DNA of 64,000 bases, taken from an uncultured Draconibacterium sp. GTDB lineage: Bacteria; Bacteroidota; Bacteroidia; Bacteroidales; Prolixibacteraceae. A program made the translations under genes and the position numbers. Below the pieces are notes generated by a model. That model saw only the letters and a list, made by a program, of their open reading frames with translations. It did not search any database and was not told where the DNA came from. How positions within the stretch are numbered: the stretch's first letter is position 1; each line of letters begins with the position of its first letter. Shown one piece after another: positions 372-57,947 of the stretch. The stretch covers positions 377,001-441,000 of the forward strand of contig NZ_OY776411.1 in NCBI RefSeq assembly GCF_963675585.1, in the 5' to 3' direction.

Positions 372-3300
372 GAACCTATTTTTGCTGATACAGAATTAAT
401 AAGCGCTTGTAATTTGTCGTCCAGTTCCTTGTTTAACTCTTCCTGTTTAAAATTCTGAGTTAAAATTACCATGTTACGCAAATGCGATATCTGCCTGTTT
501 TTTTCGCTGTTAACAGTAGCGGCAAACTCGTCGGGTAACGAAGTATAGTAATCAAGCAAACCATAGCAATTTTCAGCCATTACCCGAATAATATCGTTGG
601 CCTTGTCGGTAGCTCCGGCCCGGTAATATTGTTCCACTGCCTGAAACGAAGTATAATCATAAGGAATTGTTTCATTCGGGAACACCTCAAACATTTTGTC
701 TATTACCCCAATCGCTTTCTCTCTTTTGCTTTCGTCTTGTTCTCTGATTCCTTCATTAAGTATGGCAGTGGCTAAACGTGTAAACATAAACCTGGCCTGC
801 ATAATACTTATTTGTTTGCGGTTGTATTCATCCATATGAATGTCGGGATCGTTTACATTTCCCCAAACGTATTTGTTCATTACATTATCGTACAAAATAT
901 CCGTATCGATACGCCCCTGGAACATTCCGTTTTTCGCTGTTTTTATGGGCACAAAACGATACGCAAGACCTTCAAACTGCAGGTAATCCAAAAAATGAAT
1001 ATTGCCGGTATACAACAAACTGTGATCGATATATATAGGACGCTCCCAGTTGTTTGCAGCCATTAAATTCAACACAGCCATTTCGCTTTTGGTAAGCATG
1101 CCTTTCGTAATTTTAAACGACACTTTGTCTTCAATTAAATTGGCATCTTCCGGCTTAACCGTACCACTTTCAACTGCCTTTTGTTTGTCAACTGTAATAT
1201 GAAATTCGCGTGTAGGCAGAAAATCCAGCATGGCACCACTGGTTACTTTTACCTTGGTTCGTACATCGTCGCTGCCTAAGAACTCCATCGCCTCGCTCAA
1301 TTCAACCGATCCTTTTATGCGCTCCTGAAACAAAACCGCATCCATACGTCCCATGTAGTACTTGTCGTTTGAAAACGTAAACGGAATCGGGTCGGCGTCG
1401 TTGGTTTTAAATTTCTGCTGAGAAATGTACCAATCCATTCCCAGGTAACTTATGTTAATAATTTTAATGTCAGGTCGAACGCCTTCCACTTCCTGAACAT
1501 ACCAAAGCGGGAAGGTATCGTTATCGCCATAAGTAAACAATATGGCATTTGGAGCACACGACTCCAGGTAGTTTTTTGCATAATCGCGTGTCATGTATTT
1601 TCCCGAGCGATCGTGGTCATCCCAGTTTTCGGCGGCTAAAATACCAGGAACCAGAGCGATTGAAACAACAGTAACCAAAACAGCTCCGGGTGCTCCCTTA
1701 ATCACTTTTCGAACTACCGAGTAAAGCGCTGGAACTGCCAAACCAATCCAAATGGCAAATGCATAAAACGAACCGGCATAGGCGTAATCACGCTCACGCG
1801 GCTGATATGGAGTTTGGTTCAGATAAACTACAATCGCAATTCCGGTAAGTATAAAAAGCATCATGGTTACAGCAAACGTTTCTTTCCCTTTTTTGCCCTG
1901 ATTGTATTGATAAAACATACCAATTAATCCAAACAAAAGCGGCAAGAAATAATAAACATTTCGGCTGGCGTCGTTTTTCATAAAATCAGGCATCGCATCG
2001 CGTGGCCCAACTTTCGCTTTATCAATAAAGTCGATTCCACTCACCCAGTTGCCATTGTCAAAACTTCCATGGCCTTGCAAATCGTTTTGGCGACCCACAA
2101 AATTCCACATAAAATAACGCATATACATGTGTCCCAGCTGGTAGCTAATAAAAAAGCGGAGATTCTCACCAAAAGTTGGTTTCATCAGTGTTTTTAATTC
2201 GCCGCGTTCGCGCACTCTCACCGGTGTTCCGGTAACTTGTCCCCAATCTTTGTAGGCTTGAACATGGTTGTCGTTGTCACTGTACATACGTGGGAAAATG
2301 GTTTCCATTTTTGGTTCGTAAATCGAACCACCGGGCATTTCGCCGGTCATCACATATTTTCCATCCACCTTGTTGTACTGCTCTTTTGGCGGTTTTGTCT
2401 GAATACGGGGTGCATTATTGTAGGGGCCTTTAAATAAAGGACGGTCGCCATATTGTTCGCGGTTTAAATAACGAACCAAAGCAAATGCATTATCAGGATG
2501 ATTCTGGTTCATTGGAGGATTTGCCGATGCTCGGATAATAATCAATGCAAACGACGAGTATCCGATCAGAATTACAATAACCATAGTAACTGCAATGTTC
2601 CAAACAACCATATTTCGCTGCCTTGTGTAACGTATTCCCCAAACAGCTGCTGCAATTAAAAGAACACCCATAAACAGGATTCCGGAATTAAAAGGCAAGC
2701 CCAAACTATTAACAAATACGCGGTCGAAACCAAAAGCAATGCGCGGAACCCAGGGAATAATTCCGTACTGAATTCCTAGTAAAATTGCCATTGAAGCGAC
2801 CAGAGCATATATAACTCCTTTCCACGAAAATTCATATTTTTTGAAATAATAAACCAGACCGATTGCAGGAATGGCCAATAAGTTTAGTAAGTGAACACCT
2901 ATTGACAAGCCCACCAAATAAGCGATTAAAACAAGCCAGCGAGCCGCATGTTTTTCTTCGGCAACATCTTCCCATTTTAAAATGGCCCAAAAAACAATAG
3001 CCGTAAAAAACGACGACAATGCATAAACCTCACCTTCAACGGCTGAAAACCAAAACGAGTCGGTAAAGGTAAATGCCAATGCTCCTACCAAACCACTTCC
3101 CCAAACAGCAATTTGTTCGCCTGTATTTAATTCTTCCGAAGCAAACAGTTTTTTCGCCAAATGAACAATACTCCAGTACAATATCATAATTGTTCCGGCA
3201 CTGGCCAAGGCCGATAATGAATTTACCATAAGCGCAGCCTTGGTTTCATCGGGTGCAAACAGGGTAAAAATTCGTCCTAAAATCATAAATGTAGGTGCAC

Positions 3301-42996: not shown

Positions 42997-43335
42997 ATGA
43001 TTATTACATCCGTGAAAGATGCGCCCCCCCGGGAGAACCCTCATCAGGTTGATGTACGAAGATTATACAATTACGCTACGGCAGAGGCAATGCACATAAC
43101 ACTCCAACCCGGTGAGTCGCTTAAACCCCATACCACACCGGTTGATGTATTTTTCTATGTTCTGGAAGGTGCGCCCAACATACAAGTGGGTGAAGAAATA
43201 AAAACGGTTGCAAAAGATATTCTGGTCGAAAGTCCACGGAATATTAAACATTGTATTTCAAACCAGTCAGAATCAGTAGCGCGAATTCTTGTTGTCAAGT
43301 CTCCGAAACAGCTAACAAAATCAATTTTAGTATAA
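42997..43335 (+). CDS. Cupin-domain protein
   Basis: 112 residues, a single cupin barrel: LQPGESLKPHTTPVDVFFYVLEG (about 29-51, the first motif with His and Glu-like positions reduced to His and Asp) and SPRNIKHCISNQS (about 79-91, second-motif His). Function is unknown; small cupins recur in nitrogen-oxide operons. It starts 24 bases after the hemerythrin gene and is followed by an 80-base gap before norZ. Confidence 0.8.
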   Translation: MIITSVKDAPPRENPHQVDVRRLYNYATAEAMHITLQPGESLKPHTTPVDVFFYVLEGAPNIQVGEEIKTVAKDILVESPRNIKHCISNQSESVARILVVKSPKQLTKSILV

Positions 43336-43415
43336 ACAAATAATCGAGGCTTCGAAGAATCTCTCTTTCGTATAAAGCCTTACTTAAGATGAACTAAACT
43401 TTAAAATTTTCAAAA

Positions 43416-45656
43416 ATGAAAGCAAAAAAATTATGGATGGGCTTTATCGCCGTTATGGTTATTTCATTTGGTGTATTGCTGTATTTTGGCAAAGAAATAT
43501 ATCGTAAAGCACCTCCCATTCCAGACAAGGTGATTACATCTGATGGAAATGTACTTTTTACAGGCCAGCAAATTAAAGATGGCCAAAATGTATGGCAATC
43601 AATTGGTGGTCAGGAACTGGGATCAATTTGGGGGCATGGCGCTTATCAGGCTCCCGACTGGAGTGCCGACTGGCTGCACAAAGAAGCTGTTTTTATTTTA
43701 AATGAGCTGGCCCGACAAAACGAAGGTGCACCCTATGAAAATTTGAGTGAAGAGAAACAGGCTTCACTAAAAATACAGCTTCAAAAAGATATTCGAAAAA
43801 ATAGATTCGACCCGAAAACAAAAACATTAACTGTATCTGATGTACGTAGCAAAGCGATTGCCAGTAACAGTAAATTTTATGGCGGATTGTTTACAAACGA
43901 CCCAGCTTTATCTGATTTGCGCGATTCGTATAGTATTCCGCTTAATTCTTTAAAAAGTGAGGAACGGGTTCATTTGTTAAATGCATTTTTCTTTTGGGCA
44001 TCGTGGGCTTGTGTTACCGAAAGGCCCGGACAAGAAATTACATACACCAACAACTGGCCAGCCGAAAAATTGGTAGGCAACGAACCAACCGGAGAGTTGC
44101 ATTTATGGACAGGTTTTAGCGTGATTGTTTTGCTGGCAGGAATTGGATTAATGTCGATGTATTATGCTAGGAGAAAACAAGAAGAAGTAGAAGCACCAAC
44201 CTTGTTTCCTTTAAAAAACGAAGTTCAAACGCCCTCTCAAAAAGCTACTGTAAAGTATTTTTGGGTGGTTTCAGCGTTGCTATTGGTACAGGTAATAATG
44301 GGTGTAATTACTGCCCACTACGGTGTTGAAGGCCAGGCTCTTTATGGATTGCCACTTTCCGATTGGCTACCTTATTCGGTTTCGCGCACCTGGCATGTAC
44401 AAATTGCCATTTTTTGGATCGCAACATCGTGGCTGGCAACAGGTTTATACTATGCTCCAGCCATTTCAGGGATTGAACCAAAATTTCAAAAACTAGGAGT
44501 AAATTTTCTATTTCTTGCTTTGCTTGCAATTGTGGTGGGTTCACTCGCCGGACAATGGATGGGTGTAATGCAAAAACTTGGTTTGGTAAGCAATTTCTGG
44601 TTTGGTCATCAGGGTTACGAATATGTTGACCTTGGTCGTTTTTGGCAAATATTCCTTTTTGTTGGTTTAATAATTTGGTTGTTGCTAATGGGGCGTGCTA
44701 TTTATCCTGCCTTAAAGCAAAAATCGGAAAACCGCAACCTACTCATTCTATTTCTAATTTCGACGATTGCCATTGCAGCCTTTTATGGTGCCGGATTAAT
44801 GTGGGGCCGCCAAACCAATCTGGCCATAGCAGAATATTGGCGCTGGTGGGTTGTACACTTGTGGGTTGAAGGATTTTTTGAGGTGTTTGCTGCGGTGGTT
44901 GTAGCTTTTCTGTTTGTTCGATTGGAAATTGTAAAAGCTGCGACAGCAACTCTGGCAGTACTGTTTTCGACTATAATTTTTCTCTCCGGTGGAATTCTGG
45001 GAACTTTTCATCATTTATATTTTACCGGAACACCAACAGCGGTTATGGCACTTGGAGCCACTTTTAGTGCACTCGAAGTTGTGCCGCTCGTATTAATGGG
45101 TTTTGAAGCATTCGACAACCTAAAAGTTAGTCGCAGCAGTGAATGGATAAAAGCTTACAAATGGCCTATTTACAGTTTTATTGCAGTGGCATTTTGGAAT
45201 CTCGTTGGCGCCGGAATTTTTGGTTTCCTGATTAATCCACCAACTGCATTATATTACATGCAAGGATTAAATACAACCGCAGTACATGGTCACACTGCAC
45301 TATTTGGCGTTTACGGAATGCTGGGTATCGGCTTAATGCTTTTCGTTTTACGCGATATGGACAAAGATGCAATTTGGAAGGACAAATGGATAAAGTTTGC
45401 ATTCTGGAGTATCAACATAGGACTGGCCGCTATGGTTTTAATTAGTGTGCTACCGGTTGGACTGGCGCAAACCGTTGCAAGTGTAAAAGAAGGATTGTGG
45501 TGGGCCCGTTCAGCAGAATTTCTGCAGCAACCTTATTTGGTTACTTTCAAATGGCTACGGGTTATTGGCGATACCATTTTTGCGTTGGGCACCGTTGCAT
45601 TGGCCTGGTTTATTTTTGGATTAAAATTTGGCTGGAGTACCGAAAACAATAAATAA
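43416..45656 (+). CDS. norZ: Quinol-dependent nitric-oxide reductase (NorZ/qNorB)
   Basis: 746 residues, the size of single-subunit quinol NO reductases. The N-terminal extension holds one membrane helix and a periplasmic domain with DGQNVWQSIGGQELGSIWGHGAY (split over about 56-78). The heme-copper oxidase-like core has 13 or so helices: RTWHVQIAIFW (about 325), HLWVEGFFEVF (His/Glu near the FeB site, about 485), GTFHHLYF (about 530, paired His) and VHGHTALFGVYG (about 625). It reduces NO to N2O with quinol, for detoxification or denitrification. No nir or nos genes are nearby, so defence is more likely. Confidence 0.94.
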   Translation: MKAKKLWMGFIAVMVISFGVLLYFGKEIYRKAPPIPDKVITSDGNVLFTGQQIKDGQNVWQSIGGQELGSIWGHGAYQAPDWSADWLHKEAVFILNELARQNEGAPYENLSEEKQASLKIQLQKDIRKNRFDPKTKTLTVSDVRSKAIASNSKFYGGLFTNDPALSDLRDSYSIPLNSLKSEERVHLLNAFFFWASWACVTERPGQEITYTNNWPAEKLVGNEPTGELHLWTGFSVIVLLAGIGLMSMYYARRKQEEVEAPTLFPLKNEVQTPSQKATVKYFWVVSALLLVQVIMGVITAHYGVEGQALYGLPLSDWLPYSVSRTWHVQIAIFWIATSWLATGLYYAPAISGIEPKFQKLGVNFLFLALLAIVVGSLAGQWMGVMQKLGLVSNFWFGHQGYEYVDLGRFWQIFLFVGLIIWLLLMGRAIYPALKQKSENRNLLILFLISTIAIAAFYGAGLMWGRQTNLAIAEYWRWWVVHLWVEGFFEVFAAVVVAFLFVRLEIVKAATATLAVLFSTIIFLSGGILGTFHHLYFTGTPTAVMALGATFSALEVVPLVLMGFEAFDNLKVSRSSEWIKAYKWPIYSFIAVAFWNLVGAGIFGFLINPPTALYYMQGLNTTAVHGHTALFGVYGMLGIGLMLFVLRDMDKDAIWKDKWIKFAFWSINIGLAAMVLISVLPVGLAQTVASVKEGLWWARSAEFLQQPYLVTFKWLRVIGDTIFALGTVALAWFIFGLKFGWSTENNK

Positions 45657-45703
45657 TATTAAAAATTCTTATTGAGGGATAAGCATTTGATTGCATGACT
45701 ATT

Positions 45704-45746
45704 GTGCCACTTTGTTTTTGCAAGGTGGCACTTTGTTTTTTCTTTT
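45704..45746 (+). terminator. Terminator of the RIC-NorZ operon
   Basis: A stem GTGCCACTTT / AAGGTGGCAC (one G-T type mismatch in ten) closes an 11-base loop and runs into TTTGTTTTTTCTTTT. About 48 bases after the norZ stop. Confidence 0.85.
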
Positions 45747-45873
45747 GGGGCGAATTAGTATTTAATTTGGCTTTACTCCGTTTTTCCCATACAGATACAG
45801 TTCTTCACAACGGTGTTTTTGAGTTAAATGAACTATTTTAGTTCTGGGGTATTATTACTAAAAGCACAATGCA

Positions 45874-46272
45874 ATGAAATTTAAGAATATCGACTTTGAA
45901 GATTTAAGCCAGGTAATAATTGGATCATCGGTATTATCAGTACCGATTGCATTTACCGAAGAAGCCTGGAATTTAAGTAAAACCATTCCCGTTTTAAACC
46001 TTGGAGTAATAATAATCCTGACACTTTGTTTTATTGGGATTTACGCCTTTAAAGGAATTTTTCAAGGACATATAAAACAGCGTAAAGCCACATTTGTAAA
46101 ACGCGTATTCATTGATTATGGCGTAACCTTACTGGTTGTGGTTATCGTTCTGTTTGCTCTCAATAAATTTCCAATAAGCGAGAATCCGTTAATCGCCCTA
46201 AAAAGGGTAATAATTATTTCTTTTCCGGCCTCAATGGGCGGGATTGTTGTGGATAGTCTTGATAAGGAATAG
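45874..46272 (+). CDS. DUF2391-like small integral membrane protein
   Basis: 132 residues. VIIGSSVLSVPIAFTEEAWNLS (about 14-35) resembles the conserved motif of DUF2391/TIGR02587 membrane proteins. There are four membrane segments (about 14-30, 40-60, 75-95 and 105-125). Function is unknown. It has its own upstream region after the nor terminator and is convergent with the symporter gene, 27 bases away. Confidence 0.7.
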   Translation: MKFKNIDFEDLSQVIIGSSVLSVPIAFTEEAWNLSKTIPVLNLGVIIILTLCFIGIYAFKGIFQGHIKQRKATFVKRVFIDYGVTLLVVVIVLFALNKFPISENPLIALKRVIIISFPASMGGIVVDSLDKE

Positions 46273-46299
46273 TGGTATTTCTGTTGAACCGATATTCAA

Positions 46300-47712
46300 T
46301 CAAAATCTGCGCTTCTTCGCGAATAGCATGACTAAAAAGTAAGACAAAACCGATAGAACAATACCAAAAATATTTGCATCTAAGTTTAAGGGTAGCTCCA
46401 TTTCGCTAACAATCAGAAATAAAGTTGTTAAGCCACCGGCAAACATTGAAACCAAGGCTGCATTCGCATTCGGATTTCGTAAAAATAAGGCTGCCAGCAC
46501 CGGCACAATCATTCCTGAAACCATAAATGAATAGGAATGCAACATTAGATCAAGAACACTGGTCATTTTAAGCGCTAAAAACATGGCCAGTACACCAACA
46601 ATAAGTGTTAATAACTGAGAGTAACGTAAACTATTTGCTGTCCGGTGCTTTTTTAATACGTCAGTCAGAATATTTCCCGAAGCTGCCATTAAACAACTAT
46701 CTGCCGTTGACATTATTGCTGAGAAATAGGCAGACAAAACGATTCCCATTAATCCAACTGGTAGAATGGTACGTAATAAAACAGGCAAACCCATTTCGGC
46801 ATCGATGGTGGCAAAAGAATATCCGGCTAACATCCCTTTTTCGATTGCTACCCGGGCAAACATACCCAAAAGAACTCCTACAAATGCCATAAACGGATAT
46901 TCGAACAAACCTGCAATAAACCATCCTTTTTGGGCTGTCCGTGTATCTTTCGAAGCATATATTCGCTGATACAAAGTCATTCCAATAAACCAGATTGGGA
47001 TAATGGTAAACATCCAGTTAACAATTTGCTGCCACGATATTGAATCGAGTCTTAAAAAACTACTGTCGAGGGTTTCCTGAATTGCACCAAGGCCGCCAAT
47101 TTTAAAATAAGCAAGGGGTAAAGCAATAAAAAGCAGTCCCACCATTAATATGATCCACTGAATAGTATCGGTATAAATAACAGCCTTTAAGCCACCAAGC
47201 ACAGTATAAACAATGGCAATGCCTCCCATCACAAAAAGTGCATTTTGTATGGAAATAACCGGAAAAGTAGATGATGCCAATTTAGCCCCTGCCAATATCT
47301 GAGAACTTGTAAATCCCAGGTATCCAATGGCCGAAATTACACCTGCAAACAGAGCTACTCGTTTATCATACACATGTTCCAGAAACTGAGGAAAAGAGAA
47401 AAAACCTTTTTTACGAGCCAGACCTGCCACTTTGGGAATTAAAAACACACCGCTTAACCAGGCTCCCAGCAATCCGGTAAAAAGCAACCAACTTCCCGAC
47501 AAGCCCATTGTAAAACCAAGTCCTCCCAAACCGATGGAGAAACCGCCACCAACATCAGTAGCTACAACCGACAAACCAATGTGCAAACTGGTCAGACTCC
47601 TTCCTCCTACGTAATAATCATCGGTGCTTTTATTTTTTTTCATAAAATAAAAGCCAACACCCAACATGGCAACTAAATAAATGCCAAAAATAGTTCCGTC
47701 AATCCAACTCAT
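46300..47712 (-). CDS. Sodium:solute symporter family transporter
   Basis: 470 residues with about 13 membrane helices, LeuT-fold SSS family. Signatures are VGGRSLTSLHIGLSVVATDVGGG (about 35-57), GGLKAVIYTDTIQWIIL (about 173-189) and MSTADSCLMAASGN (about 330-343, Na2-site Ser). Its start codon overlaps the stop of the 76-residue gene by four bases, so it belongs to the abl operon. Given the context, uptake or re-uptake of a compatible solute or of lysine is a reasonable guess, not shown by sequence. Confidence 0.88.
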   Translation of the reverse strand: MSWIDGTIFGIYLVAMLGVGFYFMKKNKSTDDYYVGGRSLTSLHIGLSVVATDVGGGFSIGLGGLGFTMGLSGSWLLFTGLLGAWLSGVFLIPKVAGLARKKGFFSFPQFLEHVYDKRVALFAGVISAIGYLGFTSSQILAGAKLASSTFPVISIQNALFVMGGIAIVYTVLGGLKAVIYTDTIQWIILMVGLLFIALPLAYFKIGGLGAIQETLDSSFLRLDSISWQQIVNWMFTIIPIWFIGMTLYQRIYASKDTRTAQKGWFIAGLFEYPFMAFVGVLLGMFARVAIEKGMLAGYSFATIDAEMGLPVLLRTILPVGLMGIVLSAYFSAIMSTADSCLMAASGNILTDVLKKHRTANSLRYSQLLTLIVGVLAMFLALKMTSVLDLMLHSYSFMVSGMIVPVLAALFLRNPNANAALVSMFAGGLTTLFLIVSEMELPLNLDANIFGIVLSVLSYFLVMLFAKKRRF

Positions 47713-47939
47713 TCTCCAATTTCAACATTTAATTCAATCAGAGATGACCTTTCCTGATGTCTTACCAGGCCTTTATTCAGCAAGGAATATATTGTTTCCT
47801 GCCCTTTGGTGGTAGGCAGTTTCAGGTTTTTAATAATTTCTCCGTATATACACTTCCCTTTCCGATCTAAATACAATAACACTTCCTTTTCCAAAGAATC
47901 TTTTATATCATGAATATCAATCTTATCTTTTTGATCCAT
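47709..47939 (-). CDS. Small winged-helix-like protein of the abl operon
   Basis: 76 residues. The pattern DSLEKEVLLYLDRKGKCIYGEIIKNL, then LPTTKGQETIYSLLNKGLVRHQ and a short strand (SSLIELNVEI) looks like a compact winged helix: helix, helix, recognition helix, wing. It could be a small transcriptional regulator or a protein-binding accessory. Start is five bases after the four-cysteine gene and its last four bases overlap the symporter start. No family name is assigned. Confidence 0.65.
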   Translation of the reverse strand: MDQKDKIDIHDIKDSLEKEVLLYLDRKGKCIYGEIIKNLKLPTTKGQETIYSLLNKGLVRHQERSSLIELNVEIGE

Positions 47940-47944
47940 AACTT

Positions 47945-48121
47945 TTACCTCTTCGAAAGTTCGTTTGTTAGCTCAACATAACGCTCACAATTTTTCCATC
48001 CTCTCATTCCCCTTATGCAGAACACATTCCTAAAAATAGGAAGGGGGGTTTCGTTAACTACTTTTTTGCCCTGAAAAATCTCACAATCGTTGGCAAACCT
48101 ACATTTATCCTTTAAGCTCAT
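47945..48121 (-). CDS. 58-residue four-cysteine protein between ablB and the wHTH gene
   Basis: An ATG frame starts one base after the ablB stop codon and encodes 58 residues with cysteines at 7, 13, 35 and 45 (MSLKDKCRFANDCEIFQGKK near the N-terminus, then VFCIRGMRGWKNCERY). The spacing C-X5-C-X21-C-X9-C suggests a zinc knuckle or an iron-sulfur site. Tight packing between two operon genes (one base and five bases) supports real coding. I recognise no family name. Its place right after a radical-SAM aminomutase/acetyltransferase pair makes an accessory or regulatory role worth testing. Confidence 0.72.
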   Translation of the reverse strand: MSLKDKCRFANDCEIFQGKKVVNETPLPIFRNVFCIRGMRGWKNCERYVELTNELSKR

Positions 48122-48122
48122 C

Positions 48123-48962
48123 CTAAATATTTTTATAATAAACGTTCATACTTTCTATACCTCCTGAAATTTGCGTATTCTTAATCAATGTGCCGGAATA
48201 AATGTAATTTCTGCGAATGAAAGTCTTGTTCATTCCAACCGACTTTAGCCGGGCAATGGTATACAAGGTTTTAATTCCCTGGGCTTTCATTTCATTTTCC
48301 ATTGCATTTAAAAGCAATACCGACAAATTTTTCCCCTGATATGCAGGAAGTGTTGCAAAATCAGTCATCTCAGCATTCTGGCTTTCTTTATCGACTTCGG
48401 CCGATGCCAAAGCAATTAACTTTCCTTTTGCCTTTATTCCGAAATACTGAACATTGTTCTCCATAGTTTCCAATATGTAATCCGGATCGTGAATAGGGAA
48501 AGGATAACTTGCAAAAACTTTACGATAAATGGCTGCAATCAAATCCAGATCCTCCTTTGTCAGCCTTGAAAGTTCAACAGAACTATCCTTTCTGATATCA
48601 CCGAATTTTAGCACCTTCGTTTTTTTCAACAAGGCACTAAGCTCAATCAAACTATCCGTTTCAATATCGAGTAACCTGTCTGAATTTAAAAATTTCGACA
48701 TAAAAAAAGCGGCTTGGTCTCCTTTATAAAAACCCGGAATTTGAGCTTCAACAAAAAAGCCATTTGCTAAAAACTGAGGCGCATACTGCTGTGGAATCTT
48801 GCAAAATATTTTGGAGTAATTGTTTGCACGCGCCAATGAATTTATCTGTTCAATAATTTCAGAACCATCTCTTTTGTCGAGTTTCATAAGGTACACCCGC
48901 TTGTTCAACTCTCCATGCTGAACTATCGTTCCAAAACCTATTTTCTCAATTCTATCCTGCAT
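48123..48962 (-). CDS. ablB: Beta-lysine N-epsilon-acetyltransferase
   Basis: About 280 residues. I start at the Met of [11 protein letters not shown] because GAGAAGGG lies six bases upstream; the frame also opens nine codons earlier, inside ablA. The C-terminal GNAT domain has the acetyl-CoA loop region [23 protein letters not shown] (split about 204-226) and [19 protein letters not shown] near the end, matching the putative beta-lysine acetyltransferase family (YodP/AblB). It acetylates the N6 of beta-lysine to give the osmolyte N-epsilon-acetyl-beta-lysine. Its start overlaps the end of ablA by about 11 bases. Confidence 0.9.
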
Positions 48963-50268
48963 TTTCATCCCTTCTCGAAATACGTTCATTGTCTTCAGGA
49001 ATCAATGAGATCGAATCATTCTTATTCGACAAAAGTCGCTCAATACCAATTGCTTCCGATTCATCAATCTCTCCCAGTTTTAAATCAAGGTTGCACTGTT
49101 CACACTCGCGATCACACATCTTCTGTTCATAACTGTCCGGCTCTTTGTAAGTTGTAATTACACCTTCGTAATTTCGCAAAACAACTTTATTGGTCGACCA
49201 CGAAATAATATAATTGGGCATTACCGGAATTTTGCCGCCACCACCCGGTGCATCAATAACATAAGTTGGGCGCGCAAAACCACTGGTGTGTCCCACCAGA
49301 CTTTCCATAATTTCGATTCCTTTCCCAATTGGAGTTCTAAAATGCGACAATCCTTCCGACAAATCGCACTGATACAAATAATAGGGACGCACCCGGTTTT
49401 GAACCAGTTTGTGCAACAAGGATTTCATTATTCGCGGACAATCGTTTACATCTGCCAACAAAACCGATTGGTTTCCCAGCGGAAAGCCACCATCAGCTAA
49501 CTTTGCCAATGCTTCTTTGGCCGAACTTGTTATTTCGTTTGGATGATTAAAATGCGTATTAATCCACAAAGGCTGGTATTTTTTTAATACCGCAACCAAT
49601 TCATCGGTTATCCGATACGGCAACACAACCGGCATGCGTGTTCCAATCCGAATAATTTCGACATGTGGAATTTTACTAATTTCTGAAAGTAACCAGTCAA
49701 TTTTAGAGTCGGGCAACATGAGTGGATCTCCACCGGAAAGCAAAACATCGCGAACCTGTGGGTTCTCCTGAATATATTTAATCCCTTTTTGAAGTTGCTC
49801 CTTTGAAGGGACAAAATCAATGTCGCCCACTTTTCGTTTGCGTGTACAGTGGCGACAATACATAGAACAAATATTACTCACATGAAACAACACTCTGTCG
49901 GGGTAACGATGAGTAATTCCTTCAACCGGGCTGTCACTGTCTTCCGACAACGGATCTTCCAGCTCCGATTTGAGTGTTGTTAATTCTTCAATACCACCAA
50001 AAGCTTGTTTAAAAACCGGATCGTTTCTAAAATTCTTTTTATCAATTAACGACAAATAGTAAGGTGTTATTGATAGTGGAAACTTCTCGAAGGTTTCGAA
50101 CAACTCCAACTTTTCATTTTGGGTGAATTGTACTCCTGTTAACTCTTCAAACTTATCAACCGACCTTATGGAGTGTTTTAACTGCCACTTCCAGTCTTTC
50201 CAGTTCGAAATTTTTGGTTGATCTTCTATTCGGTTAGCAATATTTTGCTGTGTATTATTATATATCAT
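48952..50268 (-). CDS. ablA: Lysine 2,3-aminomutase (radical SAM, PLP)
   Basis: 438 residues. The radical-SAM cluster motif is CSMYCRHC (Cys134, Cys138, Cys141), after an N-terminal helical part. A SAM-binding stretch [10 protein letters not shown] (about 177-186) follows, then the PLP-anchoring region [12 protein letters not shown] (about 333-344) and a C-terminal CDRECEQCN cysteine cluster that binds zinc in the family. It converts L-lysine to L-beta-lysine, either for fermentation or, with AblB, for osmolyte synthesis. The direct overlap with ablB favours osmolyte synthesis. Confidence 0.94.
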
Positions 50269-50291
50269 ACATTAATTTTTTAAAGTCTGTT

Positions 50292-50663
50292 TTAATTGGG
50301 TACAAACATGAGTTTGATATTTTTAAAATTCTTTTCAGCAATAATTGTTTCTACCCGACCTATCATACATTCGGGCACAACAACTGTAAAATCGCCATTT
50401 TGCTGTCTGGCCGTCAAAGAAAACAAACGCCACTTCTCAATATTAATTTTGGTACTTAATTCAACTTCATACAACATACTTTTTTCGCTGGGAATCGTGA
50501 TTTTCAAATCCGGGAAAAATCCCACACCTGTTGATTTCCATACTATTTTGTCGGGTATCTTATAATTCTCCAACAATTTTGTTTCCACTAAAACGTCTTC
50601 ATCAAACGCTTTCATTTGAGTTATTACCGCCTGCACAACTTCCTTCTTTTTTAATAAACTCAT
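50292..50663 (-). CDS. Hypothetical protein heading the abl operon
   Basis: 123 residues, soluble. The sequence runs from helical (VVQAVITQMKAFDEDVLVETKLL) to a beta-rich core: GVGFFPDLKITIP (about 46-58), SMLYEVELSTKINIEKWRLF (about 61-80), DFTVVVPE (about 90-97). The order PD, then EVEL, then K is faintly like a PD-(D/E)XK nuclease or restriction-like fold, but I would not assign a function. It is 23 bases upstream of ablA and directly behind a near-consensus promoter. Confidence 0.65.
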   Translation of the reverse strand: MSLLKKKEVVQAVITQMKAFDEDVLVETKLLENYKIPDKIVWKSTGVGFFPDLKITIPSEKSMLYEVELSTKINIEKWRLFSLTARQQNGDFTVVVPECMIGRVETIIAEKNFKNIKLMFVPN

Positions 50664-50693
50664 CCCTTCAAATCCATTTAGTTTCTATGCGAA

Positions 50694-50724
50694 CAAAACT
50701 ACAAAAAATGCAAAGGCATCCAAA
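50694..50724 (-). promoter_or_regulatory. Promoter of the abl-symporter operon
   Basis: Read on the minus strand: TTTTG, 19 bases, TAGTTTTG. This matches the Bacteroidota consensus closely. The -7 element ends about 30 bases before the 123-residue gene. There is no other good promoter in front of ablA, so the six genes probably form one transcript. Confidence 0.75.
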
Positions 50725-50734
50725 ACAATAACAT

Positions 50735-50755
50735 TATTAAAGTGTTTATTTAATA
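50735..50755. promoter_or_regulatory. AT-rich dyad between the abl and otsAB promoters
   Basis: TATTAAA and TTTAATA form a perfect inverted repeat around a 7-base centre. It lies about midway between the abl -33 element and the otsA -7 element, a suitable place for a shared regulator, though AT-rich dyads arise by chance. Confidence 0.35.
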
Positions 50756-50797
50756 TGTAATAAAACGAATCAGACCGGGGACTTCAAACATTTTACA

Positions 50798-50805
50798 TAA
50801 ATTTG
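50798..50805 (+). promoter_or_regulatory. Candidate -7 element of the otsAB gene
   Basis: TAAATTTG matches TAnnTTTG, 29 bases before the start codon. The -33 box is not evident (GGGGAC in its place), which would fit an activator-dependent promoter. Confidence 0.5.
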
Positions 50806-50834
50806 CATTAATTATAATTTCTATAGAAACTATC

Positions 50835-53036
50835 ATGAATAGATTAATAATTGCCTCGAACCGCTTGCCGGTTAGTATAACAAAATCAGAGAAAAATTTA
50901 AGCTTAACACCAAGTGCCGGAGGACTGGCAACTGGTTTAAAATCATACCATAAAGGGAACGACAGTGTTTGGATTGGGTGGCCCGGTGTAAGTCCGGGAA
51001 CAAAAAAAGAAGCTGCCGAAATTACATCATTGCTCGAACAGGAACAATGTTTGCCCGTATTTTTAAGCGAGCAACAAATTGTAAATTATTACGATGGTTT
51101 TAGCAATGCAACGCTTTGGCCACTGTTTCACTACTTTGGAGAGTTTACCGAATTTAACGAGACGTACTGGGAGAGTTATTACCAGGTAAACCTGCAATTT
51201 GCGGAGGCCATTATTGCCAACGCAGAAGAAAACGACACAGTATGGGTACACGACTACCAACTGTTACTGGTTCCAAATATTTTACGCCAAAAACGGCCGG
51301 ATCTCAGAATTGGTTTTTTCCTTCACATTCCATTTCCCTCTTACGAATTGATTCGAATTCTTCCCTGGCGCGAAGAGATTATTGAAGGAATGCTGGGTGC
51401 CGATTTACTGGGATTTCACACCTACGACTATGCCCGTCATTTTATCAGTTCGGTAAAACGTTTGTTGGGCCACGATGTGGAATTTAATCAGATAAAACTT
51501 GAAAACCGTCAGGTGTATATCGATGTATTCCCAATGGGAATTGATTACAATAAATTTGAAAAACTGGCATTGGAAGTGCAGAGCAAACCCATTCAGGAAC
51601 GCTCGAAAGAACACCAGGACATTGACCGTTTTCTGATGGGAAAACCCGACCGGAAAATAATTCTTTCCATCGACCGGCTCGACTATACCAAAGGAATTCC
51701 TGAGCGATTAAAAGCTTTCAGGTATTTTCTGAACAAGTACCCCGAATACCGCGAACAGGTTTCACTTATTATGTTGACTGTTCCTTCGCGAACCGATGTG
51801 GAACAATATCAAAACTTAAAAAACGAAGTAGATATTTTGGTTGGAAATATAAATGGCGAATACGGAACGCTTAACTGGAACCCGGTTATTTATTTTTACC
51901 GGTCGATGCCATTTGAAAACCTGATTGAGTTATACAGCTCGGCCGACGTTGCACTTCTTACGCCTTTACGCGATGGAATGAACCTGGTGGCAAAAGAATA
52001 CATCGCATCGAAAGTAAACCACAAAGGCGCATTAATACTAAGCGAAATGGCCGGTGCATCGCGCGAACTTGGCGAAGCTATTTCGGTAAATCCCAACAAC
52101 ATACCGCAAACTGCCGAAGCCATTTACAAAGCGCTTACCCAAACCGACAAAGAACGCGAAAAGGCAGTACTGGCCATGCAAAAACGCATTAAACGATACG
52201 ATGTACACAAATGGGCTTCTGAATTTATGACAGCCTTAAAATCGACCATCGAAAAACAGATGGATCATCATGCCCGAAAAATATCGCCAAAATTACGATC
52301 TGAGATTCTCGAAGATTTTAGGAGCTCAAAATCAAAAACGTTGTTTTTAGACTACGACGGCACTTTGCAACGTTTTTTTGATGATCCGCAGGCAGCATCG
52401 CCCGACAAAGAATTGTACGATTTACTCGACCGTATTTCGAAACTTGAAAAAACAAAACTGGTATTGGTAAGCGGACGCGACCGTGATACATTCGACAAAT
52501 GGTTTGGCAACCGAAACTACAATTTAATAGCCGAACACGGCGCCTGGGAACGAAAACTGGGCAAAGGCTGGGCCGAAAGAAAAGCAATAAATTCGGAATG
52601 GAAAGACAGTATACTTCCTGTACTCGAATCGTTTGTTGACCGCACACCGGGAAGTTTTATCGAAGAAAAAACCTATTCGCTGGTGTGGCACTACCGTAAA
52701 GCCGACATAGAATTAGGAGTGGTTCGTGCTCTTGAATTGCTGCATACCGTATCAAATTTAATTCTGAACCAGGATCTGGAAATTCTGGAAGGTAAAAAAG
52801 TAATTGAAATTAAAGTTACCGGAATTAATAAAGGGACTGCCGCTGCTGAATTTTTGGCGACGAGCCCGTCGGAATCGATTCTGGCTTTTGGCGACGACTG
52901 GACCGATGAATTTCTGTTTAAAGAACTACCGGCAAACGCTCACACGGTAAAAGTGGGATCTGAAAATTCGGTGGCAAAATATTACGTTAACAACTACAAA
53001 GACGTTCGAAACTTTTTAAAAGAACTATTGAAATAA
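50835..53036 (+). CDS. otsAB: Bifunctional trehalose-6-phosphate synthase / phosphatase
   Basis: 733 residues. The N-terminal GT20 domain (about 1-470) has SNRLPVSITK (7-16), the GGLATGLK loop (28-35), WVHDYQLLLVP (about 136-146), LSIDRLDYTKGIP (about 277-289) and LRDGMNLVAKEY (about 377-388). The C-terminal HAD phosphatase (about 490-733) has FLDYDGTL (nucleophile Asp near 506), SGRDRD and FGDDWTDEF (about 687-695). A fused OtsA-OtsB makes trehalose from UDP-glucose and glucose-6-phosphate in one protein. Divergent from the abl osmolyte operon and 57 bases upstream of a GH15 gene. Confidence 0.95.
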   Translation: MNRLIIASNRLPVSITKSEKNLSLTPSAGGLATGLKSYHKGNDSVWIGWPGVSPGTKKEAAEITSLLEQEQCLPVFLSEQQIVNYYDGFSNATLWPLFHYFGEFTEFNETYWESYYQVNLQFAEAIIANAEENDTVWVHDYQLLLVPNILRQKRPDLRIGFFLHIPFPSYELIRILPWREEIIEGMLGADLLGFHTYDYARHFISSVKRLLGHDVEFNQIKLENRQVYIDVFPMGIDYNKFEKLALEVQSKPIQERSKEHQDIDRFLMGKPDRKIILSIDRLDYTKGIPERLKAFRYFLNKYPEYREQVSLIMLTVPSRTDVEQYQNLKNEVDILVGNINGEYGTLNWNPVIYFYRSMPFENLIELYSSADVALLTPLRDGMNLVAKEYIASKVNHKGALILSEMAGASRELGEAISVNPNNIPQTAEAIYKALTQTDKEREKAVLAMQKRIKRYDVHKWASEFMTALKSTIEKQMDHHARKISPKLRSEILEDFRSSKSKTLFLDYDGTLQRFFDDPQAASPDKELYDLLDRISKLEKTKLVLVSGRDRDTFDKWFGNRNYNLIAEHGAWERKLGKGWAERKAINSEWKDSILPVLESFVDRTPGSFIEEKTYSLVWHYRKADIELGVVRALELLHTVSNLILNQDLEILEGKKVIEIKVTGINKGTAAAEFLATSPSESILAFGDDWTDEFLFKELPANAHTVKVGSENSVAKYYVNNYKDVRNFLKELLK

Positions 53037-53093
53037 GAAAACCTACCTGCTTATTGGCGTAACTTATTATTCTCACAAAATAAAAGTTTATCT

Positions 53094-54896
53094 ATGAAAA
53101 ACATGAATTATGCCGTTATCGGAAACTGCAAAAGTGCAGCACTTATTTCCGAGAAAGGTTCGATTGACTGGTACTGTGCTCCCGATTTTAACTCGGCTTC
53201 GGTATTTGCAAAAATCCTTGACGATGAAATTGGTGGCAGTTTCGAAATTATTTGCGACGACAGTTACTCGATAAAACAAAGCTATATACGATCGACAAAC
53301 ATTGTATCAACCACATTTACTAGTGGCAACGATTGTTTTGAAGTCATTGATTTTATGCCACGTTACAAAAACAATGGCGACTATTTTAATCCATCGGAGA
53401 TAATCAGGTATTTCAGATACAGATCGGGCAACCCTGTATTTTCTATTTTGTACAATCCGAAAATGGAATATGCAAAATACGATACTGAAATTGTTGCCGA
53501 AGACGAATACATAAAAAGCTCGACAACCGAAGGCGAGTACGATTCGATTTATCTCTACACCAATATCGACAAGGAAGCCATTATTCAGCAAAAACCAATT
53601 CACCTAAAAGAGGATGCATACGTTTTACTGGCTTACGACGAAAAACTGCTGACTCAAACCTTAGACCGCCAATACCTGAAACTGCAAAAAACCAAAGTTT
53701 ACTGGCTGGACTGGGCCAACAGTTTAACCTCGTTTAAAAGTTACAACAAAGAAATTGTGCGAAGCGCGCTGGTTCTAAAACTGCTGAGTTACGACAAAAC
53801 GGGAGCTGTTTTAGCAGCTGCAACCACATCGTTGCCTGAGTCGATTGGTGAGGAACGAAACTGGGATTACCGTTTTTGCTGGATTCGCGATGCCTCAATG
53901 GCCATTAAAATTATGTCGAAACTCGGCCACCTGAATACGGTTAAACGTTTTATGAAGTTTATTATCGATATTATTCCCGATAAGGATGAAAAGATACAGA
54001 TCATGTATGGAATAAATCGTGAGAAAAAATTAACAGAAGAAGAACTCACACACCTAAAGGGATACAAAAATTCGTCACCCGTTCGTATTGGAAATGCAGC
54101 CTACGAGCAAAAACAAAACGATATTTACGGAGTTTTGGTCGATGTTATTTACCAGCAATTTATCCAGTTCAAGATCTCTCTCGAAAACAGTGAATCGCTG
54201 TGGACCATTGTTCGGAGTATTGTTCGTATTGTGGAAAACAACTGGCAAAAACCCGACAAGGGAATTTGGGAAATCAGAACCGACGAAAAACATTTTACCT
54301 TTTCGAAGGTGTTGTGCTGGGTTGCCATTGACAGAGCCATAAAAATTGCCGACATCATTCACAAAGAAAAATACCTGAATGATTGGCAAAAATTAGCCGA
54401 CACAATTAAAAGCGATATCCTTAAAAATGCATGGAACGATGAGAAAGGTGCCTTCACCCAATTTTACGGATCGAAGGACATGGACGCAGCCAATTTATTA
54501 ATGGAATCATACGGTTTTATTGATGCAAAAGATCCAAAATACATTCAAACCGTGGTTGAAACAGAAAAGGAACTTTGTTACAACGGACTGATGTACAGGT
54601 ATAAAAACCAGGATGATTTCGGACTTCCAACGTCATCGTTTACCATCTGTACTTTTTGGCTGATAAATGCACTCGATGCGGTAGGACAACGAAAAAAAGC
54701 AAAACAAATGTTCGACCAGTTGCTCAAATACAGCAACCATGTTGGACTGTTTAGCGAAGATCTTGACTTTGAAACCAAAGAGCTTTTGGGAAATTTCCCG
54801 CAAGCCTATTCGCATTTAGCACTTATCGATACAGCAATAAATCTTTCGAAAGGAAAAATTACGGAAGACGAACAAATCCTGGAAGCGATACATTAA
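53094..54896 (+). CDS. Glycoside hydrolase family 15 protein (trehalase/glucoamylase-like)
   Basis: 600 residues. An N-terminal beta domain opens with NYAVIGNCKSAALISEKGSIDWYCAPDF (split, about 4-31). The (alpha/alpha)6 barrel has ERNWDYRFCWIRDASMAI (about 254-271), the catalytic-acid segment GIWEIRTDEKHFTFSKVLCW (about 389-408) and the base segment LFSEDLDFETKELLGNFPQAYSHLALI near 565. Bacterial members at this length include alpha,alpha-trehalases and glucan hydrolases. The otsAB neighbour makes trehalose the probable substrate. A synthesis and a breakdown gene side by side suggest controlled turnover of the solute. Confidence 0.88.
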   Translation: MKNMNYAVIGNCKSAALISEKGSIDWYCAPDFNSASVFAKILDDEIGGSFEIICDDSYSIKQSYIRSTNIVSTTFTSGNDCFEVIDFMPRYKNNGDYFNPSEIIRYFRYRSGNPVFSILYNPKMEYAKYDTEIVAEDEYIKSSTTEGEYDSIYLYTNIDKEAIIQQKPIHLKEDAYVLLAYDEKLLTQTLDRQYLKLQKTKVYWLDWANSLTSFKSYNKEIVRSALVLKLLSYDKTGAVLAAATTSLPESIGEERNWDYRFCWIRDASMAIKIMSKLGHLNTVKRFMKFIIDIIPDKDEKIQIMYGINREKKLTEEELTHLKGYKNSSPVRIGNAAYEQKQNDIYGVLVDVIYQQFIQFKISLENSESLWTIVRSIVRIVENNWQKPDKGIWEIRTDEKHFTFSKVLCWVAIDRAIKIADIIHKEKYLNDWQKLADTIKSDILKNAWNDEKGAFTQFYGSKDMDAANLLMESYGFIDAKDPKYIQTVVETEKELCYNGLMYRYKNQDDFGLPTSSFTICTFWLINALDAVGQRKKAKQMFDQLLKYSNHVGLFSEDLDFETKELLGNFPQAYSHLALIDTAINLSKGKITEDEQILEAIH

Positions 54897-54902
54897 AAAA
54901 GA

Positions 54903-55400
54903 TCAGATATCCTGGTTGTCAAAAGACTCCTCCAAATCCTCTTCCATGGTTAACATTGGCGAAGCATTCACTTTTTCAATGTCCATTATGGTAACGAGGG
55001 TTTCGAGGCCTTTTTCAACCTGCTGAAGTAGTTCGGCATCCAATTGGGCAAGTTTTTCTGAAAGCTGTTCGTGCAACAACGACGGCATTTTACTCAGCAA
55101 AGTATCTCCGGCTGAAGTCAGGGCAATGTTAACTACCCTTTTATCTCCCGATTTAGGCAATCGTGCCAGATAACCTTTTCGCTCGAGCCGGTTAATAATA
55201 CCACTTACCGTGCTCGAATTTAAATTCAGAAATTTGCGGATTTCGCCTTGGGTTGACTGGTAATTTTTGGAATCGCGTAAAAAGTTAAGGCACAAAACCT
55301 GTGGAATACTTACACCATATTCTTTTTGGATTTTTTTCGACTCAATATCAACCGAGCGAACAATTTTTCTGATTTTTATTAAAATTTCTGTGGTATCCAT
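54903..55400 (-). CDS. MarR-family regulator
   Basis: 165 residues from the ATG that starts MDTTEILIKIRKIV; 13 further codons upstream are open but their composition (FSHC) is less plausible. The winged helix covers about 35-100: VSIPQVLCLNFL, TQGEIRKFLNLNSSTVSGIINRLERKGYL split across two helices, then wing PKSGDKRVVNIALT. The C-terminus is an acidic tail. MarR regulators of this type control ectoine and other osmolyte genes (EctR). It converges on the GH15 gene with six bases between and may control the island. Confidence 0.83.
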   Translation of the reverse strand: MDTTEILIKIRKIVRSVDIESKKIQKEYGVSIPQVLCLNFLRDSKNYQSTQGEIRKFLNLNSSTVSGIINRLERKGYLARLPKSGDKRVVNIALTSAGDTLLSKMPSLLHEQLSEKLAQLDAELLQQVEKGLETLVTIMDIEKVNASPMLTMEEDLEESFDNQDI

Positions 55401-55480
55401 ACAATGGCTAAAAATACAAATGTTTTTCTCATCTGCCAATTGGAATAATATTTGTTAAGCAAGGCACAAAAACCGCATCA

Positions 55481-56572
55481 ATGAAAACAGCCCAATTCTA
55501 CTTTTTTATAAGCTTTATACTGCTTTTTAACTTTACTTCCCCGGCTCAGCAAAACAATACCATAAGAGGCCAAATAATCGATTCAGAATCGCACAAGCCA
55601 ATTCCCCATGCCGAGGTTTTTATTTCAGGCACAACCGTTGGATGTATTACAGATACGGCCGGAATATTTCAAATAAAACCGCCTTATTTCCCTTGTACTT
55701 TGGTGGCCGACCATGTTGCTTACGAATCGTTTGTTAAACCTCTGGAACATGGCGTAAATCTGCAAATAGATCTCAGGCCTTCCAATTATTCGCTGCCCGA
55801 AATTGCAGTGAAAGGCAAGGACAAACGAAAACGAAATCTCCGTTTCTTTTACTCTCACTTTATTAAAGAGAACCGAGACCAAATTAAAATCCTAAATGAT
55901 TCTGCGCTGATTTTCCAACGAGATAAAATGCAATTTATAGCCAAAACCAACGAACCGTTGTTGCTTGTAAATGATTATCTGGGGTATAAAGTAAAAGTAA
56001 TTTTAGATGAGTTTAAAGTATATGCTTTGGATGGTCCAAACGGAAAGCCAATTCCTTTAAATTCGATCGATGGTGGAGAAGTGCTGCAAATGAGCGGATA
56101 TTATTTCTACGAACCTCTGGAAAAACAGTTTCCCAACAAAAAATCCGACTACACGCTTAACCGCCAAACTTCATATTATGGCTCGTACCGCCATTTTTTA
56201 AAATCGATTTACGATGAAAATTTAGGACAACAAGGATATGAAATAGAGGTAATTCCAAACGATATTGCTGCAGCTTTTTTTCGTCTGCCATCAAATGGAC
56301 AGAATAACGATGCCAAACAGTATACCAGCAAAGCAAATTCGTTAAAAGTACACTACTATTTTAATTCGAAGCAGCGTCCGGTTCCGTTGGAGAATATCGA
56401 AGAATATTTCCAGGTAACACAACGCACTTCAATAATTCACCTTACAGGGAAGCCTTTTTTCATCCGGCAAAATGGCACCAGCCCGCAACTTCCTCTGATT
56501 ATTGAGGGTGGTATGGAGATTAAAAATTTTGCCAATTCATTGCCAGAAGATTACATACCTCCTATAAACTAA
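55481..56572 (+). CDS. Carboxypeptidase-regulatory-domain surface protein
   Basis: 363 residues. Signal peptide (about 3-22), then a carboxypeptidase D regulatory-like beta sandwich (TIRGQIIDSESHKPIPHAEVF, about 28-48; VAYESF near 82; SLPEIAVKG near 105). The remaining 250 residues are beta-rich with no clear family. In Bacteroidota this combination marks outer-membrane-associated proteins; no TonB-dependent barrel is present, so it is probably a periplasmic or cell-surface protein. It is divergent from the MarR regulator. Confidence 0.75.
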   Translation: MKTAQFYFFISFILLFNFTSPAQQNNTIRGQIIDSESHKPIPHAEVFISGTTVGCITDTAGIFQIKPPYFPCTLVADHVAYESFVKPLEHGVNLQIDLRPSNYSLPEIAVKGKDKRKRNLRFFYSHFIKENRDQIKILNDSALIFQRDKMQFIAKTNEPLLLVNDYLGYKVKVILDEFKVYALDGPNGKPIPLNSIDGGEVLQMSGYYFYEPLEKQFPNKKSDYTLNRQTSYYGSYRHFLKSIYDENLGQQGYEIEVIPNDIAAAFFRLPSNGQNNDAKQYTSKANSLKVHYYFNSKQRPVPLENIEEYFQVTQRTSIIHLTGKPFFIRQNGTSPQLPLIIEGGMEIKNFANSLPEDYIPPIN

Positions 56573-56613
56573 AAAGTCCACCCGCATTCTTTCAAATACA
56601 AATGGACTTTTCC
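56571..56613. terminator. Bidirectional terminator between converging genes
   Basis: A 9-bp stem AAAAGTCCA / TGGACTTTT encloses a 22-base loop. T runs flank it on both strands (TTTTCC on plus, TTTTTAG on minus), so it can serve both this gene and der. Confidence 0.7.
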
Positions 56614-56636
56614 TGCTTCGGGTAACCGACTTTCCT

Positions 56637-57947
56637 CTACTTCTGTCGGAAATAAATCTGGATTGGAACACCCGTAAAATTAAAGTTATCGCGCAACTGG
56701 TTTTCAATGTAACGGCGATACGGCTCTTTAATGTATTGCGGTAAGTTGGCAAACAAAGCAAAAGCCGGCGTTGGCGATGGCAACTGCGTGCAATATTTAA
56801 TTTTAATATATTTCCCTTTAACCGAAGGTGGCCCGTAAGTTTCAATCGCTTCCAGCAACACCTCGTTTAGTTCCGAAGTTTTTATTCGTTGTTTGCGGTT
56901 AGCATTCACTTCCATGGCAACTTCCAAAGCTTTATGTACCCGTTGTTTTGTTAACGCCGAAATAAAAAGAATTGGAACATCGACAAAAGGAGCCAAACGC
57001 TTCTGAATCTCTTCTGTCAGTTTTTTGGTTGTCATGGTGTCTTTGTCAATCAAATCCCACTTGTTAACCAAAATAACCACTCCCTTTTTATTTTTCACTG
57101 CCAGGTTAAAAATGTTTACGTCCTGCGCTTCTACACCACGAGTAGCATCAATCAACAACAAACAAACATCTGAATTTTCAATGGTTCGCACTGAACGTAA
57201 AACCGAATAAAATTCCAGGTCTTCACTTACCTTGGGTTTTTTTCGCAAACCGGCGGTATCCACAATCATAAAATCGTGACCGAACTTATTGTAACGTGTA
57301 TGAATTGCATCGCGGGTAGTACCGGCAACATCAGTTACAATGTTTCTATCCTCTCCAATCAACGCATTAATAAACGATGATTTACCAACGTTTGGACGCC
57401 CAACTACCGACAAGTACGGCAATTCATGTTCCTCTTCCAAAGAATCTTTATCGGGAAAAAGCTCCACCAGAGCATCTAACATCTCTCCTGTCCCACTTCC
57501 TGTCATCGACGAAATACAATAAATCTCGCCCAATCCTAATCCGTAAAACTCTTGAGCATCAGGAATTCGGTTATGGTTATCAACCTTGTTTACCACAAGA
57601 ATCACTTTTTTCCCACTTTTCCTTAAGATGGTGGCAATTGCATCATCAAGGTCGGTAATTCCCGATTCCACATCCACAACAAAAGTGATTACGTCGGCCT
57701 CATCAATGGCCAGGTGCACTTGTTTGTTAATTTCTGCTTCAAAAATATCGTCTGAATTTACTACATAACCACCCGTATCAATTACCGAAAAGTCCACTCC
57801 GTTCCACTCACCTTTTCCATAGTTCCGGTCGCGTGTTACACCTGCGGTTTCGTTAACAATTGCTTTTCTTTGTTCAATCAGGCGATTAAACATTGTCGAT
57901 TTACCAACATTTGGTCTTCCAACTATTGCTATTATTCTACTACTCAT
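56637..57947 (-). CDS. der: Ribosome assembly GTPase Der (EngA)
   Basis: 436 residues with two GTPase domains and a C-terminal KH-like domain. The first P-loop is GRPNVGKST (7-15) with DTGGY (about 57-61) and NKVD (about 118); the second is GRPNVGKSS (about 181-189) with [10 protein letters not shown] (about 229-238) and NKWD (about 296). The KH domain is about 350-436. Der supports 50S subunit assembly. It lies 66 bases downstream of era on the same strand, with a 14-bp palindrome CAGGCGATCGCCTG in the gap. Confidence 0.96.

Follow-up and report, generated by a model that had tools for sequence, protein, structure and literature searches.

The N-acetyl-β-lysine pathway, encoded by ablA and ablB, is salt-induced in methanogens, and its solute accumulates in green sulfur bacteria, according to passages of PMC9337991. 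Other compatible-solute operons, carrying ectoine and betaine genes, are repressed in a salinity-dependent manner by EctR1 and CosR, MarR-family proteins likewise encoded beside compatible-solute genes (passages of PMC7876524). Here we describe a locus of an uncultured Draconibacterium sp. in which an ablAB operon diverges from genes for trehalose synthesis and, probably, hydrolysis, in the company of a marR gene. It lies in a window of 64,000 nucleotides, the whole stretch of DNA analysed (contig NZ_OY776411.1 of assembly GCF_963675585.1, positions 377,001 to 441,000 of the forward strand); coordinates below are those of the window. Our favoured reading, to which we give a probability of about 0.7, is that a single local repressor of the MarR type, predicted to be relieved by salt, controls both osmolyte pathways of the locus.

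The pathways themselves are already known; what is new is the pairing of regulator and site, the capture of trehalose synthesis and two small proteins. The titles, abstract openings and passages seen of the open-licence PMC papers searched contained no account of such a layout and none of ablAB being controlled by MarR. The window shares with the described ablAB pathway overlapping ablA and ablB genes whose products pass the curated cut-offs, to which it adds two small proteins (cys58 and wh76), an SSS-family symporter, MarR and the trehalose genes. Its MarR is likened to EctR1 and CosR, which serve other osmolytes, by family and gene position.

ablAB and otsBA diverge from a 171-base region

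AblA (48952–50268, minus strand) passes the lysine 2,3-aminomutase model TIGR03820 (763.9 bits; cut-off 525.4), and the adjacent AblB (48123–48989, minus strand) passes that of β-lysine N-acetyltransferase, TIGR03827 (311.5 bits; cut-off 205.1). The solved L-lysine 2,3-aminomutase 2a5h, a radical SAM enzyme, aligns with residues 21–397 of AblA, which retains the CxxxCxxC, YQCDL and DAPGGGGK stretches; we take the Asp of the latter two to be lysine-binding. On the other arm, otsBA (50835–53036, plus strand) encodes trehalose-6-phosphate synthase and phosphatase as a single fused protein (NF011071, 1009.8 bits; cut-off 634). The arms are separated by 171 bases, between the start of u123 (a 123-aa protein, 50292–50663, minus strand) at 50663 and that of otsBA at 50835. 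A GH15 gene follows otsBA, and marR (54903–55400, minus strand) is convergent with this arm at the end of the block.

The open reading frame (ORF) list of the window thus places every gene, the divergent gap and the convergent MarR where the original prediction had them, and its view of the block as a compatible-solute locus is borne out by ablAB, the symporter and the trehalose genes, with AblA, AblB and fused OtsBA above curated cut-offs. The six minus-strand genes are tightly packed: the ablA and ablB ORFs overlap, one base separates ablB from cys58, and the stop of wh76 and the start of the symporter share the bases ATGA. Since the arrangement recurs in related genomes, the layout is more than chance. 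This recurrence was followed in 97 loci (35 family regions, 20 phylum-draw regions and 42 named loci found by scanning a collection), which reduce to 75 distinct loci when those with the same peptide are merged. The phylum draw accounts for 20 of these, and the other 55 are of Bacteroidales type. What the genes are, that their order is conserved, and which sites lie where are all read from sequence.

A conserved operator-like site at the abl promoter

Motif and pattern searches located an operator-like sequence, GTTCGCATAGAAAC (50681–50694, minus strand), directly abutting TAGTTTTG, which we take to be the Bacteroidetes −7 box of the abl promoter. It is an imperfect palindrome, pairing at four of seven positions by hand count. 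The motif had been spotted by eye before expectation-maximization (EM) discovery, which returned TTTTGTTCGcATAGAAAC at 25.3 bits from a non-redundant set of 32 upstream regions that have no trehalose genes beside them; four shuffled control sets, run from 15 starts against 80, gave 9.3–10.4 bits. Of the 32 discovery regions, 30 score 17.8 bits or higher for TTTTGTTCGcATAGAAAC, the misses being L104, with an interrupted ablA, and L113, whose contig stops inside ablA. All 11 trehalose-linked regions excluded from discovery reach at least 20.6 bits, and the top score over five shuffles per region was 10.9. Conservation continues for about 13 bases beyond the −7 box.

The 18-mer TTTTGTTCGYATAGAAAC, which holds GTTCGCATAGAAAC, was then searched in 100 genomes of the family. 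At no more than one mismatch it gave 36 sites, 28 of them within 4 kb of ablB; the eight distant sites carry one mismatch each, and every exact copy (21/21) lies within 4 kb of ablB. The reversed pattern gave seven matches in the same genomes. Among genomes with AblB, 28 of 34 carry a TTTTGTTCGYATAGAAAC match. As for the others, contigs stop at or near the operon start in G016 and G081, G012 lacks an ablA next to its ablB, and the abl sites of G008, G048 and G057 have more differences and fall outside the one-mismatch limit.

The palindrome 5′ of otsBA follows linkage to ablA

By pattern scoring, a second operator-like palindrome, TTTCTATAGAAA (50818–50829, plus strand), related to GTTCGCATAGAAAC, was placed just 5′ of otsBA. 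Its first base lies 17 bases ahead of the start codon and 20 bases beyond the first base of a TAnnTTTG box. The otsBA family search was positive in 55 of the 100 genomes. Among the best 30 of these 55, the 11 linked otsBA all match TTTCTATAGAAA at 11–12 of 12 bases, whereas all 19 unlinked genes, with no ablA in the 1.5 kb viewed, reach 10 of 12 at most. A second, partly overlapping set of 11 non-redundant linked loci gave 11–12 of 12 in seven. In a tree of 33 otsBA sequences, from which nine near-duplicate linked loci were excluded, 14 linked and 19 unlinked genes split across the midpoint root with supports of 1.0 and 0.82. Together, the restriction of the site to linked otsBA and the split in the tree indicate that the site tracks physical linkage; judged from these sequences, it seems not to be an ancestral feature of the family's otsBA.

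The bacterial otsBA–GH15 pair is present here too, as fused OtsBA beside GH15, and a GH15 neighbour was found in 30 of the 30 otsBA loci examined. The linked otsBA are set apart from the unlinked ones by their side of the tree and by the 11–12/12 site. One genome (G083, C1:3742258–3744462) carries a second otsBA, 48% identical, about 2 kb from the linked otsBA, which is itself interrupted.

marR is mostly an upstream neighbour of ablA

The original prediction took the MarR gene as closing the block. Its convergent position at the end of the block stands, but it is more than an end marker: among the 55 Bacteroidales-type loci, marR lies directly upstream of ablA, at 400 bases or less and on the same strand, in 29. 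In 17 others, the window included, it lies farther upstream on the strand of ablA, with an oppositely pointing otsBA–GH15 between them. It is downstream of ablA in one locus and outside the view in eight. This association with ablA in relatives, with a family-level MarR match (46 bits, PF12802/PF01047), makes it the predicted local regulator. Conservation places the start of marR at the ATG at 55400, which is also the end coordinate of the original prediction, the longer ORF opening at a TTG at 55439; the best NCBIfam match is FabT (48.8 bits; cut-off 200). In three genus members without AblB (G010, G063 and G090), no match to this MarR was detected at E 0.001. In L045 (from G042), a one-mismatch copy of the abl site at 1779–1796, one of the eight distant from ablB, overlaps the marR start codon, a possible self-control site.

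Control of ablA by a riboswitch (Na+-I or c-di-AMP) was considered and rejected, the Rfam search of positions 43000–57000 having given nothing relevant. The ablA of Dehalobacter, by contrast, has a Na+ riboswitch according to passages of PMC9337991. The sole Rfam match at E ≤ 1 was a sub-threshold ribosomal L10 leader at 45622–45746 (31.2 bits, gathering threshold 44, E 0.072), probably due to chance.

Conservation of the cassette

In the 100 family genomes, AblB passes its cut-off in 34 and cys58 (47945–48121, minus strand) is found in 33, both occurring together in 30. AblB is without cys58 in G012, G034, G046 and G079. Conversely, cys58 occurs without an AblB above cut-off in G092, where a piece of ablB scores 203.3 bits, in G032, where cys58 and wh76 stand alone, and in G091. 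The cys58 match of G091 is diverged (42 bits) and sits beside a gene that looks EngB-like from its translation.

Gene order is well kept in the Bacteroidales-type loci. ablB directly follows ablA in 48/53, cys58 directly follows ablB in 49 of the 53 loci having ablB, wh76 (47709–47939, minus strand) comes directly after cys58 in 40/51 and the symporter directly after wh76 in 29/40. Where the symporter is missing from this place, some loci end at a contig edge and others truly carry various different genes. The original prediction had made conservation of its three small genes next to ablAB a point to be checked. It holds for cys58 and mostly, though not throughout, for wh76; u123 fails it, with only ten distinct sequences, all from trehalose-linked Draconibacterium/Maribellus-type close relatives, as found among these loci and not by a genome-wide search.

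Among named records, cys58 finds its best matches in Maribellus and Draconibacterium. Across the phylum, with up to 20 candidates per genome scored, cys58 was found in one of 296 genomes, that of the window itself. Interrupted cassettes were also seen: L065 (from G030) has no detectable ablA and its symporter only in pieces, the symporter of L099 lies in two open stretches, and so does ablA in L104 and L049.

The small proteins, the symporter and GH15

The 58-aa cys58 keeps four Cys (C7, C13, C35 and C45), one Gly and one Trp invariant in all 51 aligned sequences. Searches of Pfam, NCBIfam, PHROG, PADLOC and PDB yielded no credible relative, and its AlphaFold model is poor (mean pLDDT 67.4, pTM 0.39). 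A diverged four-Cys relative is encoded at 3143–3373 of L164, a 6-kb contig without any osmolyte gene, where the flanking genes, inspected by eye, resemble those for mannose-6-phosphate isomerase and EngB; from this relative, the cys58 domain may be wider than the predicted MarR regulon.

The 76-aa wh76 is a winged helix by sequence comparison: a profile built from 25 sequences hits PDB winged helices of the Z-alpha and Lrp types (best 2e-5), and a TrmB match stands at 2.4e-4, below gathering. Defence and phage libraries gave weak winged-helix-type and other matches for wh76, none for cys58 and one at E 0.11 for u123. The low-confidence model of u123 (mean pLDDT 62.1, poor at the N-terminus) has a strand-strand-helix-strand-helix-strand order, and the sequence has a PD...E-x-E pattern. 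Against the PDB the model gave a best E of 0.085 and nothing at 0.001; several of the weak matches are PD-(D/E)XK nucleases. The model thus weakly recalls such nucleases, as a lead only.

The symporter (46300–47712, minus strand) belongs to the SSS family of sodium:solute symporters (PF00474, 153.7 bits). It scores under the equivalog cut-offs of TIGR00813 (153.3 against 184 bits) and PutP (139.1 against 515.5), so no equivalog is assigned. The GH15 glycoside hydrolase (53094–54896, plus strand) is a probable trehalase (PF00723, 213.6 bits; TREH_N, 53.8 bits). For SSS and GH15, as for MarR, the assignment is at family level.

Comparison with green sulfur bacteria

Among 395 genomes of the phylum, AblB passed its cut-off in 17, 14 of them from one family; the FMO bacteriochlorophyll protein was present in the three members of this family tested and absent from two other genomes tested. 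All 13 green sulfur loci fetched from this family have a marR adjoining or overlapping ablA, with ablB next, and eight have a symporter match. cys58 was not matched in any of these 13, although ablAB is present. The green sulfur MarR aligns with the Bacteroidales one through the helix-turn-helix. TTTCGTGTACGAAA-type repeats, caught with a loose pattern written after they had been seen, stand about 29–55 bases before marR in 11 of the 13 loci. An annotated ablA of Ilyobacter has no acetyltransferase, symporter or MarR gene among its annotated neighbours, and no comparison could therefore be gained from it.

Weighing the explanations

The two arms could instead be independent osmolyte operons lying side by side, their sites belonging to different regulators or to promoter sequence, with MarR controlling only one of them. 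The abl site does touch the −7 box, so that part of its conservation is promoter, and the abl and otsBA sites are not identical; moreover, the 19 unlinked otsBA without the site imply that trehalose genes can run without TTTCTATAGAAA. Promoter sequence, however, does not readily account for the block conserved past the −7 box, nor for an otsBA palindrome that goes with linkage. In addition, exact TTYSYATAGAAACT occurs twice in the 6.03-Mb genome, about one copy being expected by base composition (an estimate), and both copies lie inside the 171-base gap. We hold independent operons to be unlikely. Far less probable still is that ablA serves lysine breakdown by fermentation and not osmolyte synthesis: ablA genes are described as clustering with lysine degradation genes (passages of PMC2821294), but here the operon includes the AblB acetyltransferase and shares its gap with trehalose genes. 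A search for lysine-5,6-aminomutase alpha (PF09043) gave no match, but neither did the controls, and it proves little.

A further alternative concerns cys58, which might support AblA, for instance as an iron-sulfur or electron-supply partner of this radical SAM enzyme, as its invariant Cys and its place directly after ablB would suggest. Against this, two loci (L107 and L116) have no ablAB in view yet retain cys58 and the symporter next to otsBA and marR (of the two, L107 alone also has wh76), and G032 keeps cys58-wh76 without AblB, a close MarR match or a symporter seen alongside. The occurrence of cys58 apart from ablAB argues against a role in AblA chemistry and for one in control or transport, and the green sulfur loci have ablAB with no cys58 match. 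We regard such a partnership as rather improbable.

Several observations weigh against a single MarR switch. In G014 and G044 the MarR gene lies elsewhere in the genome although the abl promoter retains the site, and no conserved site was found upstream of marR itself in the Bacteroidales loci. In the second set of linked otsBA, L090, L095 and L116 have TTTCTATAGAAA at 10 of 12 in a fitting place, and L107 is without the site (7 of 12). The site patterns were written after the sites had been seen, and the palindromes of green sulfur bacteria and Bacteroidales amount to a resemblance. GH15 falls under both archaeal trehalase equivalog cut-offs (417 against 820 and 365.7 against 1000 bits). In the own genome, a one-mismatch search gave 25 matches against 25 in the control, with no enrichment, and a 19-mer search at three mismatches did worse than its control (three against six); in the window, four matches at two mismatches or fewer were equalled by 10 of 100 shuffles. 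On these counts, only exact sites are informative. A wider regulon in the own genome was rejected, no credible one having emerged.

Proposed mechanism

We retain the reading of one MarR-type repressor over both arms. At low salt, the MarR dimer would occupy GTTCGCATAGAAAC, where it would mask the transcription start of the abl promoter and the margin of its −7 box, and likewise TTTCTATAGAAA, which lies immediately 3′ of the −7 box of otsBA. A rise in salinity would release MarR from both sites. Trehalose would later be hydrolysed by GH15, and a solute would be imported or recaptured by the symporter. cys58 and wh76 may belong to this regulon as accessory proteins in its control, by a mechanism that is a guess. 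What we infer here is that MarR binds the sites, that salt is the cue, which products are made, and what the symporter and GH15 act on. In a bolder scenario, which we consider doubtful, a dedicated MarR–operator pair would have accompanied the acetyl-β-lysine pathway on its way from green sulfur bacteria into marine Bacteroidales. Within a single genus-level group it would also have captured the synthesis of trehalose, giving a one-regulator two-osmolyte switch, with cys58 and wh76 as a new metal-binding plus winged-helix control pair tuning the symporter or the operon.

In our judgement, osmolyte choice is poorly known in bacteria outside the best-studied models. Comparison of these genomes points to a real, conserved and probably co-regulated two-osmolyte locus, for which a candidate regulator, a specific DNA site and two pathways can now be named in this group. 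Since the group includes named strains (Draconibacterium, Maribellus and Sunxiuqinia), the predicted switch is directly testable, and a family of four-Cys proteins gains a conserved gene context.

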